Both the position numbers and the translations under genes were made by a program. The notes below the pieces were generated by a model. That model was not told where the DNA came from. It made no database searches and was given only the letters and a program-made list of their open reading frames with translations. 33,654 nucleotides of DNA. It comes from Hydrogenophaga sp. Its GTDB lineage: Bacteria; Pseudomonadota; Gammaproteobacteria; Burkholderiales; Burkholderiaceae_C. The stretch is taken from contig NZ_JAQVEJ010000013.1 of NCBI RefSeq assembly GCF_028698005.1, positions 1 to 33,654 on the forward strand. The letters run 5' to 3'. Of the stretch, positions 15,588-33,651 are shown piece after piece; the stretch's first letter is position 1, and each line of letters starts with the position of its first letter.

Positions 15588-16844
15588 TCAGGCCGACGGC
15601 AGCTCGATCACGAAGCGCGCGCCGCCCCCTTCGCGTTCCTCGCAGCGCGCGCTGCCGCCATGGCGCTGGGCGATCGTGCGCACCAGTGCCAGCCCCAGGC
15701 CGACGCCACCCTCGCGCTCGCTGGCACCGGGCAGGCGGAAGAAGGGCTCGAAGATGCGTTCGCGCAAGGCGGCCGGCACACCCGGTCCGCGGTCCTGCAC
15801 CACCAGGCGCAGGTGTGGCCCCTGCGCATCGCTGAACCGCTCCAGCCGCAAGGTGACGGCCGCTTCACCGGCCTCGGTGGCCGCCGTCCCCGTGCCGTAG
15901 CGGCGGGCATTTTCCAGCAGGTTGCGCACCAGCCGGCGCAGCAGCCGCGGGTGGCCTTGCACCAGCAGGGGGGCGCTGCCCTCGGCGATCTGCAGGTCGG
16001 CCCCCGTGCGTGCGCACTCCTCGGCGGCCAGACCGATCAGGTCGATTTCCTCGGTCGGCCCCAGGGCCTGCGGGTCGTCGGCGCGCGCATCGAGCCGGCT
16101 GGCCAGCAGGATCTCGTCGATCAACTGGTCCAGCTCCTCGATGCTGCGCGACATCTCGGCGCGCTGTGCGGCGGTGCCCGGGTCATGGCCCAGCAGTTCC
16201 AGGCCCATGCGCAGGCGTGCCAGTGGCGAGCGCAACTCGTGCGAGGCGTTGGCCAGCAAGGACTTGTGCGACAGCAGCAGGGTCTGTACCCGTTCGGCGG
16301 CGGCGTTGAAACGCCCGGCCAGGAAGGCCACTTCGTCGTGGCCCTGCACCGGCAGGCGGGTGCTGAGGTCGCCTCCGCCCCAGCGCTCGACGCCGCGTTG
16401 CAGCACCTCAAGCCGCTTGGTCAGGCGCCGCACGATGGGGTAGGCGCCCAGCGCGACGGCCAGCGCCACCAGCGTGAGCATCCAGAAAAAACCGGGGGTC
16501 GTGCGCAGCCACTCGTGGGCGCGGCCGCCCATCAGGGGGCTTTCCGGGGGGCGTTTGGCTCGGGGCAGCTGGATGTACAGCATCTGCCCGTCCTTCATCT
16601 GCACCTGGAATTCCAGCCCGGCACCGGGCACCCGCACCGCCTGTGCCGGGGCTTGCGCCAGAATGTCGCCGCCGCCGTTGCGGATGATGATGGTGCGCCC
16701 GGTGCGGCTGTCGTTCTGGGCGCGCTCGAAATCGAGCGCCATCTGCCAGAGCCAGCCCACGACCAGCGTCAGCACCGCGACCGCCGCCACCACGGCCAGC
16801 CAGATGCGCAGGTACAGCCTTTGGCCGAGAAAACCCCGGGTCAC
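15588..16844 (-). CDS. HAMP-domain sensor histidine kinase (GTG start)
   Basis: LLANASHELRSPLARLRMGLELL H-box, LLENARRYG N-box, DRGPGVP, GVGLGLALVRTIAQRHGG. Confidence 0.93.
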   Translation of the reverse strand: MTRGFLGQRLYLRIWLAVVAAVAVLTLVVGWLWQMALDFERAQNDSRTGRTIIIRNGGGDILAQAPAQAVRVPGAGLEFQVQMKDGQMLYIQLPRAKRPPESPLMGGRAHEWLRTTPGFFWMLTLVALAVALGAYPIVRRLTKRLEVLQRGVERWGGGDLSTRLPVQGHDEVAFLAGRFNAAAERVQTLLLSHKSLLANASHELRSPLARLRMGLELLGHDPGTAAQRAEMSRSIEELDQLIDEILLASRLDARADDPQALGPTEEIDLIGLAAEECARTGADLQIAEGSAPLLVQGHPRLLRRLVRNLLENARRYGTGTAATEAGEAAVTLRLERFSDAQGPHLRLVVQDRGPGVPAALRERIFEPFFRLPGASEREGGVGLGLALVRTIAQRHGGSARCEEREGGGARFVIELPSA

Positions 16845-16855
16845 CGTCAGACCCT

Positions 16856-16965
16856 CCCGCGCAGCGGGGGCGCGTGGAGGCCGACGATCCCGCCGCCGGG
16901 CCGCCCCAAGGCGGGATCAGCCCCCTCGGGGGGCAGCGACCCGCGCAGCGGTGGAGCGTGGGGGC
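16856..16965 (-). repeat. Structured intercistronic repeat element between regulator and kinase genes
   Basis: Two 22-bp direct copies (16856-16877 and 16940-16961, 20/22 identical), a perfect GATCCCGCC/GGCGGGATC stem (16886-16894/16910-16918), and a C/G-run hairpin GCCCCCTCGGGGGGC. Confidence 0.8.
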
Positions 16966-16971
16966 TTTTTT

Positions 16972-17685
16972 TCATGCCTGTTGCTTCGCGAACACGTAGC
17001 CCACGCCACGCACCGTGAGGATGCGTTTGGGGTCTTTGCTGTCATCTTCGATGGCGTTGCGGATGCGTCCCACGTGCACGTCGATCGAGCGGTCGAAGGC
17101 CTCCAGTTCGCGCCCGCGCACGGCCTCCATGATCTGGTCGCGCGTGAGCACGCGGCCGGCGCGCTCGGCCATGGCCACCAGCAGGTCGAACTGGTAGGAG
17201 GTGAGTTCGCAGGCCCGGCCGCGCACCTGCACGGAGCGGGCATCGCGGTCGATCTCCAGCGAACCGAAACGCAGCACGGGCGTGATGCGCTCGGCCGGGA
17301 CGGCACCTTCGCCGCGGCGGCGCAGCACGGCGCGCACGCGGGCCAGCAATTCGCGCGGCTCGAAGGGTTTGGGCAGGTAGTCGTCGGCACCCAGTTCCAG
17401 CCCGATGATGCGGTCCATCGGGTCACCCTTGGCCGTCAGCATCAGCACCGGGGTGCGGGCCAGGCCGTTGGGCAGCGCGCGGATGCGGCGGCACACTTCC
17501 AGGCCGTCGATGCCCGGCATCATCAGGTCCAGGATGACCAGCGCCGGCTGGATCAGCGGTAACTGCTCCAGACCGGTTTCGCCGTCGCCGGCGTGGGTCA
17601 CCTCGTAGCCGGACTGCGCCAGGTAGGCCGAAACCATCTGGGCCAGGCGGGCATCGTCCTCGATCATCAGCAGGCGGGAAGTCAT
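16972..17685 (-). CDS. OmpR/PhoB-family response regulator
   Basis: VILDLMMPGIDGLEVCRRIR, GADDYLPKPFEPRELLARVRAVLRR, C-terminal winged helix RSIDVHVGRIRNAIEDD...RILTVRGVGYVF. Confidence 0.95.
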   Translation of the reverse strand: MTSRLLMIEDDARLAQMVSAYLAQSGYEVTHAGDGETGLEQLPLIQPALVILDLMMPGIDGLEVCRRIRALPNGLARTPVLMLTAKGDPMDRIIGLELGADDYLPKPFEPRELLARVRAVLRRRGEGAVPAERITPVLRFGSLEIDRDARSVQVRGRACELTSYQFDLLVAMAERAGRVLTRDQIMEAVRGRELEAFDRSIDVHVGRIRNAIEDDSKDPKRILTVRGVGYVFAKQQA

Positions 17686-30145: not shown

Positions 30146-31096
30146 ATGCCACTGGGCACGCTGGACCGCACGCCGCCCCCGTTCTTCAAGCAGGGGCCCT
30201 CGGCCCTGTCCCGGCTTGTGGTGTGCAGCGCGCTGGCGCTGTTCCTGATGGTGGCCGACCAGCGCTTTGACGTGATGCATCCCGTGCGCACGGTGCTGGC
30301 GACGGCGCTGTATCCCTTGCAGTGGACGGTGATGCAGCCGGTGGAACTGGTGCGTCGCGGTGGCCGCTACCTGACCTCGCTGCACGCGGCACAGCAGGGC
30401 GAGGCGCTGGCGCGAGCCCAACTGGCCGTGCAGGCCGAGCGCAGCCAGCAGGTGGAGCTGCTGATGCTGGAGAACCAGCGCCTGCGGGCGCTGCTGCAGA
30501 TGCACGATCGCGTGCAGACGCGCTCGGTCGGGGCCCAGGTGCTGTACGACGCGGCCGATCCGTACTCGCGCAAGGTCATGATTGACCAGGGGCTGGCCCA
30601 TGGGATTGAGGCGGGCTCGCCGGTCATCGACGACCAGGGCGTGCTTGGCCAGGTGACGCGGGTCTATCCGCTGGTGTCCGAGGTGACGCTGCTGGTGGAT
30701 CGGGACCAGATCATTCCCGTGCTCAATGCCCGCACCGGTGCGCGTTATGTGGCCTTTGGCCAGCCCGGCGAGAAGGGCGACGGGCTGGAGCTGCGCTACA
30801 CGCTGTCCAGCGCCGACATCGACGAAGGGGATCTGCTGGTCACCAGCGGTGTGGACGGGGTCTATCCGGCCGGTCTGCCGGTGGCCCGCGTGACCCGGGT
30901 GGAGCGTCGGGTCGAGTCGTCTTTCAACCGCATCCTGTGCGAGCCCCTGGCCCGCATCGACGGTGTGCTGCAGGTGCTGGTGCTGTCGCCGGTGGATGCG
31001 CAATTGCCGCCGCGGCCCGCCGAGGAGGCCACGGCGCGCGCGCGGGCTGCGCGGCCGGCGGCCGGGCCGGGGCATCCAGGAGGTGGGCAGCCATGA
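30146..31096 (+). CDS. mreC: Rod shape-determining protein MreC
   Basis: Position after mreB; VMIDQGLAHGIEAGSPVIDDQGVLGQVTRVYPLVSEVTLLVDRD, LVTSGVDGVYPAGLPVARV. Confidence 0.96.
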   Translation: MPLGTLDRTPPPFFKQGPSALSRLVVCSALALFLMVADQRFDVMHPVRTVLATALYPLQWTVMQPVELVRRGGRYLTSLHAAQQGEALARAQLAVQAERSQQVELLMLENQRLRALLQMHDRVQTRSVGAQVLYDAADPYSRKVMIDQGLAHGIEAGSPVIDDQGVLGQVTRVYPLVSEVTLLVDRDQIIPVLNARTGARYVAFGQPGEKGDGLELRYTLSSADIDEGDLLVTSGVDGVYPAGLPVARVTRVERRVESSFNRILCEPLARIDGVLQVLVLSPVDAQLPPRPAEEATARARAARPAAGPGHPGGGQP

Positions 31097-31623
31097 TCAT
31101 GCGCCCGGGACTGCAGCTGCTGCTGCCAGCCAATCCGGTGTTCATCTGGGTCACCCTGCTGGGTGCGCTGATGCTGAACATGCTGATGAACATGGGCCTG
31201 TGGGGCCGGGCGGCGTGGATGCCCGACCTGCTGGCCGTGGTGCTGGTGTTCTGGGGTGTGCACCAGCCGCTGCGCATCGGCGTGGGCGTGGGCTTCATCT
31301 TTGGCCTGGCGATGGACGTGCACCAGGGTGCGCTGCTGGGCCAGCACGCACTGGCCTACACGGTGCTGGGCTTCATGGCGGTGTCCATCCACCGACGGCT
31401 GCTGTGGTTCGCGTTGCCCAAGCAGGCGATCCAGGTGCTGCCGCTGTTCGTGGTCGCGCACCTGTTGTCCCTGCTGGTGCGCCTGTTGGCCGGTGAGAGC
31501 TTCCCGGGCTGGGCTTACTTGCTGGCGCCGGTGGTCGAGTCGGTGTTGTGGCCGCTGATCAGCGTGCTGCTGCTGGCGCCGCAGCGGCGTGCGCCGGATC
31601 CGGACGCCACCCGGCCCCTGTGA
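31093..31623 (+). CDS. mreD: Rod shape-determining protein MreD
   Basis: ATGA overlap with mreC; small multi-TM protein with PDLLAVVLVFWGVHQP...GLAMDVHQGALLGQHALAY. Confidence 0.95.
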   Translation: MIMRPGLQLLLPANPVFIWVTLLGALMLNMLMNMGLWGRAAWMPDLLAVVLVFWGVHQPLRIGVGVGFIFGLAMDVHQGALLGQHALAYTVLGFMAVSIHRRLLWFALPKQAIQVLPLFVVAHLLSLLVRLLAGESFPGWAYLLAPVVESVLWPLISVLLLAPQRRAPDPDATRPL

Positions 31624-31630
31624 CATGGTG

Positions 31631-31669
31631 CCCCCACGCTCCACCGCTGTGCGGGCCGCTGTTCCCCGA
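31631..31669 (+). repeat. Second copy of the intercistronic repeat element (mreD-mrdA spacer)
   Basis: CCCCCACGCTCCACCGCTGTGCGGGCCGCTGTTCCCCGAGG matches the reverse complement of the 16926-16965 region with about 4 mismatches in 40. Confidence 0.75.
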
Positions 31670-31704
31670 GGTGAAACGCTGTTGTCTTTCCCGTGTGATG
31701 CGCC

Positions 31705-33651
31705 GTGACGGAACTCAAGAACGTTGAAGCCGATCTGGCCCGGTTCCGCATCCGGGTCATCGCTGCGGTGCTGGCCGTGCTGGTGGCGTTCGGGCTGATC
31801 GTCGCGCGCATGGTGTACCTGCAGGTACTGCGGCACGAGTCGCTGGCGATGCAGGCCGAGAGCAACCGCACGGCGGTGCTGCCCGTGGTGCCCAACCGGG
31901 GCCAGATCCTCGACCGCCACGGTCGCGTGCTGGCGTCGAACTACTCGGCCTATACGCTGGAGATCACGCCCTCGAAGGTGCGGGATCTGGAAGCCACCAT
32001 CGACGAGCTGTCGACGCTGGTGGAGATCACGCCACGCGACCGGCGGCGCTTTCGCAAGCTCATGGAAGAGTCGAGGCGCTTCGACTCGCTGCCGCTGCGT
32101 GCCCGTCTGAGCGACGAGGAGGTGGCGCGTTTCGCGGTACAGCGCTACCGCTTTCCCGGCGTCGATGTGCGCGCGCGCCTGTTCCGCCAGTACCCGAACG
32201 GCGAAGTGGCCAGCCATGTGATCGGCTACATCGGGCGCATCAACCAGCGCGAGAAGGAGCAGATGGACGAATGGCCCGAGGAGGAGCAGGCCAACTACCG
32301 GGGCACCGAGCACATCGGCAAGCTCGGCGCCGAGCAAAGCTACGAGCGGCAACTGCACGGCGTGACGGGCTTCGAGCGGGTCGAGACCTCGGCGGGTGGG
32401 CGGGCGGTGCGTTCGCTGGCCCACACGCCGGCCATGCCGGGCGACACCGTGGTGCTGTCGATCGACATCCGCCTGCAAAAGCTGGTTGAGGACCTGTTTG
32501 GCGAGCGCCGCGGCGCGCTGGTGGCCATCGATCCGCGCACCGGCGAGGTGCTGGCCTTCGTGTCCAAGCCGACCTTCGATCCCAACCTGTTCGTCGACGG
32601 CATCGACGTCGAGAGCTGGAAGGCGCTCAACGAATCGGTGGACAAGCCGCTGCTCAACCGCGCCTTGCGGGGCACCTATCCACCAGGCTCGACGTACAAG
32701 CCCTTCATGGCGCTGGCGGCCCTGGAAACGGGCACCCGCCAGGCCCAGGTGATCGTCCAGGACGGTGGCTCGTGGACCTTTGGCGGTCACACCTTCCGCT
32801 CGGGCCATGCGCTGGGGCCGGTGGACATGCGCCGCTCCATCATCAAGTCGAGCAATGTCTACTACTACACCCTGGCCAACGAGATGGGGGTGGATGCGAT
32901 CCATGACTTCATGGCGCCGTTGGGCTTTGGCCAGCTCACGGGCGTGGACCTGCGGGGCGAGGTCCGTGGTGTGCTGCCCAGCCAGGCCTGGAAACGCAAC
33001 ACCTACAAGCGGCCGGAGCAGCAGCGCTGGTACGGTGGTGAGACGATTTCGCTGGGCATCGGGCAGGGCTACAACAACTTCACCATGCTGCAACTGGCCC
33101 AGGCCATGGCCACCATCGCCAATGGCGGGCATCGCTTCAAGCCGCACCTGGCCATTGCCACCGAGGACGCGGTGACGCGCCAGCGCGTTCCTCTGCCGCA
33201 GGAGCCGCCCGTGAACCTGGGGTACAAGCCGGAGAACGTCGCGGTCATCCTTGATGCGATGCACGCGGTGACGATCGAGGGGACATCGGCGCGGGTGTTC
33301 GCCGGCGCCGGCTACACCAGCGGGGGCAAGACCGGGACGGCGCAGGCGGTGACCATCGGCCAGAAGGAGCGCTACGACGCGCGCAAGCTCGAGGAGCACC
33401 AGCGAGACCACTCGCTCTACCTGGCCTTCGCGCCGGTGGAGGCGCCCAGGGTGGCGCTGGCGGTGGTCGTCGAAAACGCGGGCTTCGGTGCCGCGCACGC
33501 CGCGCCCATCGCGCGGCGCGTGTTCGATTACCTGCTCATGGACCAGTACCCGAACCCGCAGGACATGGCGGCGGTTCAGAAGGGGCAGGCCGCCGCGCCG
33601 ATCGGCACGCCGCTCAAGGCCAGCGAGTTGCCCTGGCCTCTGGAAGAGTAA
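31705..33651 (+). CDS. mrdA: Penicillin-binding protein 2 (peptidoglycan D,D-transpeptidase), GTG start
   Basis: NRGQILDRHGRVLASNYSAYTLEITP, YPPGSTYKPFMALAALETG (SxxK), KSSNVYYYTLA (SxN), SGGKTGTAQ (KTG). Confidence 0.97.
   Translation: MTELKNVEADLARFRIRVIAAVLAVLVAFGLIVARMVYLQVLRHESLAMQAESNRTAVLPVVPNRGQILDRHGRVLASNYSAYTLEITPSKVRDLEATIDELSTLVEITPRDRRRFRKLMEESRRFDSLPLRARLSDEEVARFAVQRYRFPGVDVRARLFRQYPNGEVASHVIGYIGRINQREKEQMDEWPEEEQANYRGTEHIGKLGAEQSYERQLHGVTGFERVETSAGGRAVRSLAHTPAMPGDTVVLSIDIRLQKLVEDLFGERRGALVAIDPRTGEVLAFVSKPTFDPNLFVDGIDVESWKALNESVDKPLLNRALRGTYPPGSTYKPFMALAALETGTRQAQVIVQDGGSWTFGGHTFRSGHALGPVDMRRSIIKSSNVYYYTLANEMGVDAIHDFMAPLGFGQLTGVDLRGEVRGVLPSQAWKRNTYKRPEQQRWYGGETISLGIGQGYNNFTMLQLAQAMATIANGGHRFKPHLAIATEDAVTRQRVPLPQEPPVNLGYKPENVAVILDAMHAVTIEGTSARVFAGAGYTSGGKTGTAQAVTIGQKERYDARKLEEHQRDHSLYLAFAPVEAPRVALAVVVENAGFGAAHAAPIARRVFDYLLMDQYPNPQDMAAVQKGQAAAPIGTPLKASELPWPLEE

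Follow-up and report, generated by a model that had tools for sequence, protein, structure and literature searches.

Two operon junctions of the window hold copies of one repeat

The window, the 33,654-nt stretch of Hydrogenophaga DNA analyzed here, contains two gene junctions occupied by the same element, one between mreD and mrdA on the forward strand and the other between a response regulator and a sensor histidine kinase on the reverse strand. The element is the Beta-proteobacterial Repeat Element (BRE), as set out below. The features of both junctions are as follows.

30937 to 31623, + strand: mreD, upstream gene (Pfam MreD; open reading frame [ORF] as listed, the true start probably lying further in)
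31625 to 31708, + strand: predicted bridge mini-ORF encoding MVPPRSTAVRAAVPRGETLLSFPCDAP followed by a stop (27 aa; translation predicted)
31630 to 31671, + strand: 5' portion of BRE with the constant block GCCCCCACGCTCC...CCCCGA; identity to the copy at 16886 to 16965 is about 90%
31670 to 31679, + strand: remnant GGTGAAACGC, interpreted, by alignment to the stem type of relative G003, as what an internal deletion of 30 nt left of hairpin 2, namely its 3' arm
31705 to 33651, + strand: mrdA (PBP2), downstream gene with a GTG start (Pfam Transpeptidase and PBP_dimer)
16972 to 17685, − strand: response regulator, upstream gene
16847 to 16975, − strand: predicted bridge mini-ORF encoding MKKSPHAPPLRGSLPPEGADPALGRPGGGIVGLHAPPLRGRV followed by a stop (42 aa; translation predicted)
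16886 to 16965, − strand: full BRE unit with hairpin 1 and hairpin 2, the latter with stem GATCCCGCC/GGCGGGATC and loop TTGGGGCGGCCCGGC
16852 to 16881, − strand: second BRE unit in tandem, partial and decayed (3 mismatches in the 20-mer)
15588 to 16844, − strand: sensor histidine kinase, downstream gene with a GTG start

Both junctions share the 20-mer GCCCCCACGCTCCACCGCTG, which is found exactly at 31630-31649 (+) and 16946-16965 (−) (0.03 expected by chance) and a third time, with 3 mismatches, at 16862-16881 (−); none of 100 shuffled sequences gave three matches. Aligned by BLAST, the two copies are 90% identical over 42 nt (E = 8e-10), which bears out the resemblance of about 4 differences in 40 that the first-pass annotation had seen between the mreD-mrdA repeat and the element at 16926-16965. 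That annotation had also placed each copy after an upstream stop codon and before a GTG-start gene, and the coordinates agree at both loci: the stops are the mreD TGA (31621-31623) and the response-regulator TGA (16974-16972), and the starts are those of mrdA (31705) and of the kinase (16844). The mini-ORF of the mreD-mrdA junction begins with an ATG 1 nt past the mreD stop and ends with a TGA that overlaps the mrdA GTG. That of the other junction (16975-16847, −) begins with an ATG overlapping the response-regulator stop (ATGA) and ends with a TGA 2 nt before the kinase GTG; the decayed partial unit comes after the full unit within this same mini-ORF. Neither mini-ORF had been noted in the first-pass annotation.

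The mre copy folds no better than shuffled sequence (z = −0.49), so the earlier description of its hairpin as decayed holds, but the cause appears to be other than the loss of a G-run. Compared with a full unit carrying the G003-type stem, 30 nt are missing between CCCCGA and GGTGAAACGC, and on this alignment an internal deletion within a BRE explains the copy better than simple decay of the G-run does.

The repeat is BRE

Far from being limited to two copies, the repeat gave 58 BLAST matches to a 146-nt stretch in its own genome (281 contigs, 3.17 Mb) and is present in all 36 same-genus genomes searched, which confirms a dispersed intercistronic repeat family. Many of the own-genome copies stand in head-to-tail arrays with a period of about 80 to 87 nt; over all genomes in which arrays were seen, the period is about 75 to 87 nt. 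On four contigs (C58, C90, C147, and C273), BRE units lie in the first ~200 nt, at contig ends, so the assembly is probably interrupted by the arrays and the number of copies underestimated. A covariance model built from 35 copies detected the repeat in 46 of 399 genomes of the order, among them 11 of 12 same-family genomes outside the genus. No Rfam match above the gathering score was obtained in the window or in loci L003 and L006.

The unit is 79 to 81 nt long, the copy in the mreD-mrdA gap being a 42-nt partial one. The blocks CCCCCACGCT, GCTGCCCCCCGAGGGGGC, and CTTGGGGCGGCCCGGCG stay the same throughout the order, and the middle of the element and the stem of hairpin 2 are variable. This stem differs from locus to locus with its complementarity kept: 98.3% of hairpin-2 cells are paired, 40 of them changed on both sides, a level reached by 0 of 500 shuffles, and shifting the partner by one column lowers pairing to about 60%. 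The units of one array generally share the same stem, which suggests local duplication. With the covariation observed in hairpin 2, a role of the hairpins in mobility or in RNA structure is probable.

In the literature searched, one description matches, that of BRE by Hot et al. 2011 (PMC3110155). In that paper BRE is a repeat of about 90 nt, with units of about 75 to 91 nt and partial copies of 40 to 60 nt; it is GC-rich and occurs in tandem in variable number in Bordetella, Comamonadaceae, and Azoarcus. The repeat described here agrees in length, GC-rich palindromes, tandem arrays of variable size, intergenic position, and host taxa. It was found in all three of the published taxa, and a pattern derived from the model matches in one other family of the order retrieved Bordetella, Achromobacter, and allied genera. 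The two descriptions also share the lexA locus: at published locus #3, B. pertussis has 2 repeats between BP1793 and lexA (PMC3110155), and locus L394, from the Bordetella genus, holds exactly two tandem units directly after the lexA stop. The other 13 of the 14 lexA loci examined in that genus held no copy, in line with the weak conservation of context described in PMC3110155; a search of five named Bordetella genomes, which preceded that of the whole genus, was also negative. On the basis of anatomy, taxa, and this one shared locus, we conclude that the repeat is BRE. It is indeed a dispersed family, one that had already been named and that occurs across the order. The published account gives far fewer copies per genome, includes no reading frame, stop-codon anchoring, or covarying stem, and proposes no function.

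Sense copies are anchored to stop codons

The gene context of BRE was analyzed statistically in 2.0 Mb of the relative G023, with a home-made gene caller and with the elements masked. Of the 37 loci, 23 lay in co-directional gaps (17 sense and 6 antisense), 13 in convergent gaps, and 1 in a divergent gap. Divergent gaps are thus depleted of BRE (1/37; p = 8e-4), and the sense orientation is favored in co-directional gaps (17:6; p = 0.03). A test independent of the gene caller looked at 195 loci for ORF stops no more than 15 nt away from the element, on the same strand at its 5' end or antisense at its 3' end; the loci that were discordant favored the same-strand stop at the 5' end by 87 to 11 (p = 8e-16), and the direction was the same in four groups (G023, the genus, the order, and Alcaligenaceae). 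Sense copies begin 0 to 10 nt past a stop codon. The first-pass annotation had seen both copies in the same orientation relative to transcription, and the bias holds statistically, yet the mreD-mrdA gaps of G020, G021, and G024 hold reversed copies, so the orientation of BRE is a tendency and not a rule. In a Rhodoferax antarcticus plasmid (L435, 1501-1574), a BRE copy runs antisense within a gene whose annotation is Fic family protein.

Orthologous junctions differ in occupancy

Presence and absence were compared at the mreD-mrdA and response regulator-histidine kinase junctions across 28 to 29 relatives, several of which share one insertion event in these two deep comparisons. In many relatives the mreD-mrdA gap is only 4 to 8 nt, with the mreD stop close to the mrdA start. 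Sense copies occupy it in G001, G002, G003, G023, and G031, and their number differs between relatives, one copy versus three (three in G003); the response regulator-histidine kinase junction shows the same patchwork of occupancy. At 13 of 17 comparable G023 loci, the orthologous site is cleanly empty in at least one of the close relatives G013 and G016, and at G023 locus 8 both of these hold the repeat in the opposite orientation. From the empty sites and the polymorphic occupancy, we conclude that BRE is or was mobile.

Two possible traces of insertion were considered and set aside. A target-site duplication was sought in the flanks, which share slightly more than shuffled pairs do in all four groups, a signal confounded by tandem copies and by the start codons present on either side. 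The idea that the stem arms copy the target site rests on a few AT-rich examples and fails at the mreD-mrdA gap.

The two junctions also hold a second dispersed two-hairpin repeat, found in the mreD-mrdA gap of G007, G010, G019, G020, G022, G024, and G034 (the last being locus L065). It consists of CACCCCCGCGCCGCCTTCGGCGTCACCCCCTCAAGGGGGC plus GATGCG...CGCATC around GGCCCGGCAAAGCCGG and differs from BRE in sequence while having the same two-part design. Matches to it number 46 in G034, 34 in G023, and 8, all weak, in the own genome.

Reading frames often bridge occupied junctions

Comparison with empty sites shows that the start codon is in many cases located to the left of the element, which means that the element is read. 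In the genus, 21 of the 27 occupied mreD-mrdA and response regulator-histidine kinase gaps are tiled by such an ORF, with tiled gaps of up to 346 nt, and most of these ORFs end at the ATGA of the next gene. Across different junctions, tiling was found at 23 of 44 loci versus 11 of 123 control frames (p = 1e-8). A strict version of the test, with related loci removed, TTG excluded, and overlap or abutment of the next start required, gave 16 of 38 loci versus 8 of 114 control frames (p = 2e-6); 13 of the 16 bridge ORFs begin at a −4 overlap. Co-directional gaps of 60 to 300 nt that are free of BRE are also less often tiled (35 of 186 in G023; p = 2.5e-5 in comparison with the gaps holding BRE). 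The enrichment is in part a matter of openness, given that one frame of the element contains a stop of its own, which closes 61 of the 114 control frames. Moreover, 14 of the 52 deduplicated co-directional loci lack an ATG or GTG close to the upstream stop, and another 17 form neither a bridge nor a fusion (31 of 52 in all). Start codons are difficult to call in GC-rich genomes.

Each of the three frames of the repeat is used by some bridge ORFs, so that the peptide is neither conserved nor the point; what is kept is continuity. Arrays of 2 to 5 units are read through, and the mini-ORF peptides gave no Pfam match. The ORF is kept despite the loss of the hairpins in the window mre copy and in G001, where the 5' arm is destroyed. 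Other copies are fused in frame to the downstream gene, as at a CoA-transferase-like gene of G023 (named from its N-terminal region only). An independent in-frame example comes from another order, where Azoarcus KH32C has a BRE at the junction of a transketolase family gene. In the corresponding stretch of plasmid pAZKH of Azoarcus sp. KH32C (L436, 1488-1617), the annotated start is at 1617, and an in-frame ATG at 1488 overlaps the upstream stop; the BRE would be an N-terminal extension of that gene.

In a minority subtype, GGAG, GAGG, or AGGA stands immediately ahead of the next ATG, within the 3' arm of hairpin 2 (examples are L149, L153, L154, and L158). Copies with such a Shine-Dalgarno-type arm have a start in this position in 9 cases and lack it in 8, compared with 27 and 151 for the other copies (p = 8e-4). 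Several gaps holding the second repeat are also tiled by ORFs, so that tiling may belong to the junction rather than to BRE.

A model for the retention of BRE

We favor, with a probability of roughly 0.6, the reading that BRE is a mobile hairpin repeat kept as a predicted translated bridge mini-cistron that preserves translational coupling. BRE inserts at tight gene junctions, sense copies just past a stop, and the copies retained at co-directional junctions tend, as the statistics show, to be open: a start codon, usually overlapping the upstream stop (RTGA), reads into the element, and the frame ends on a stop that overlaps or abuts the next start, or is fused in frame as an N-terminal extension. 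According to the proposed model, one RTGA stop/start junction would thereby become two, with a translated mini-cistron between them; terminating ribosomes would re-initiate twice, and the downstream gene would stay coupled and shielded from polarity. In one minority subtype, hairpin 2 also supplies, through its 3' arm, a Shine-Dalgarno sequence immediately ahead of the following ATG. We infer translation of the bridge ORFs, which would be retained by selection for coupling or against polarity. However, about one-third of the G023 copies lie between convergent genes, which leave no coupling to preserve, and some copies are antisense, which counts against a role in coupling. The bridge pattern may also be a mere filter on tolerated insertions, considering that gaps with the second repeat tile as well and that more than half of the deduplicated loci neither bridge nor fuse.

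It is possible, at clearly less than even odds, that BRE and the second repeat family are both mobile mini-cistrons, each bringing or capturing a start, an open frame, and a stop on the next start. On this broader reading, insertions would sometimes carry a hairpin-masked Shine-Dalgarno sequence, and the number of copies would both add translated modules to operons and set the coupling of the neighboring genes.

Alternative explanations

Alternatively, BRE might act as an RNA-level hairpin at the 3' end of the upstream cistron, in the manner of REP/BIME, protecting the mRNA 3' end, serving as an RNase III processing site, or attenuating transcription, with the ORFs being incidental. The covariation of hairpin 2 fits this explanation, as do the sense orientation and the tight stop-codon anchoring, convergent gaps included. 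It is also in keeping with the small RNA bprJ, which changes in an RNase III mutant of B. pertussis (PMC8386462) and whose region contains a BRE (PMC3110155). Nevertheless, we consider it unlikely: a hairpin role does not predict the frame-specific enrichment of bridges, the window mre copy and G001 have kept the ORF while losing the hairpins, and no sense-strand T-tract terminator-like site lies immediately 3' of the element in the window. An intrinsic terminator is not supported, the only sense-strand call near the kinase start being a weak 5-pair stem and a stronger call lying on the opposite strand. Where the first-pass annotation had suggested that the repeat possibly tunes expression as REP/BIME do, the data point instead to selection for continuous translation across the junction.

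A second alternative holds that BRE is a selfish mobile repeat that inserts at stop/start junctions, perhaps with a short RTGA duplication, and that purifying selection removes the insertions that break translation and leaves those that bridge. This would account for most of the data, among them the empty sites and polymorphic occupancy, the weak flank duplication signal, the use of all three peptide frames, and the existence of convergent and antisense copies, and it departs from the coupling model mainly by denying a benefit. The Shine-Dalgarno-bearing subtype suggests more than tolerance, however, and we regard pure selfishness as rather improbable.

Very improbable, finally, is a REP-like element mobilized by a RAYT (Y1/HUH) transposase: BRE units do form dispersed palindromes that occur in tandem, and a Y1_Tnp gene, nearly always single, is present in 30 of 36 genomes of the genus, but none of the 12 Y1_Tnp loci examined has repeats within 1.5 kb, and the homologue in the own genome falls below the family cutoff and lacks the HUH histidines despite the 58 matches there. 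The RAYT association that the first-pass annotation had suggested looking for is not supported. This homologue (L031; G000:C215:13903-14151) is the only RAYT-like (Y1_Tnp) protein of the own genome and reads NRVRLL where relatives have the catalytic HUH motif NHFHLL.

Relation to known systems and significance

Like REP/BIME, BRE forms dispersed intergenic palindromes in operon gaps, often in arrays. In contrast to them, it has a different sequence and no RAYT gene flanked by copies, and its operon-junction copies read as bridge ORFs; a fixed GTAG-type tetranucleotide 5' of the hairpin is absent, the upstream flank being A/G-rich. Rickettsia palindromic elements are palindromic repeats kept as in-frame coding sequence. 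These insert inside protein genes, whereas BRE in most cases makes up a mini-cistron of its own, or extends the downstream gene at its N terminus, where two operon genes meet; N-terminal fusions do occur, but most bridge copies are separate mini-ORFs. With translationally coupled leader ORFs and RTGA overlaps, BRE shares the stop/start overlap and the short ORF before the downstream gene, but in its case a mobile repeat brings the short ORF along. BRE itself was already known; new here are the stop-codon anchoring of sense copies and the bridge-ORF pattern at co-directional junctions.

In the literature searched, no function of BRE has been proposed since 2011. If the coupling model is true, translated bridges would give a simple, testable account of where these palindromes are placed, and the unusual N-terminal extensions and small hypothetical ORFs annotated in beta-proteobacteria would find an explanation. 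It would also show how a repeat can spread into operons, that of cell-wall elongation (mre-mrd) among them, and leave their genes coupled.
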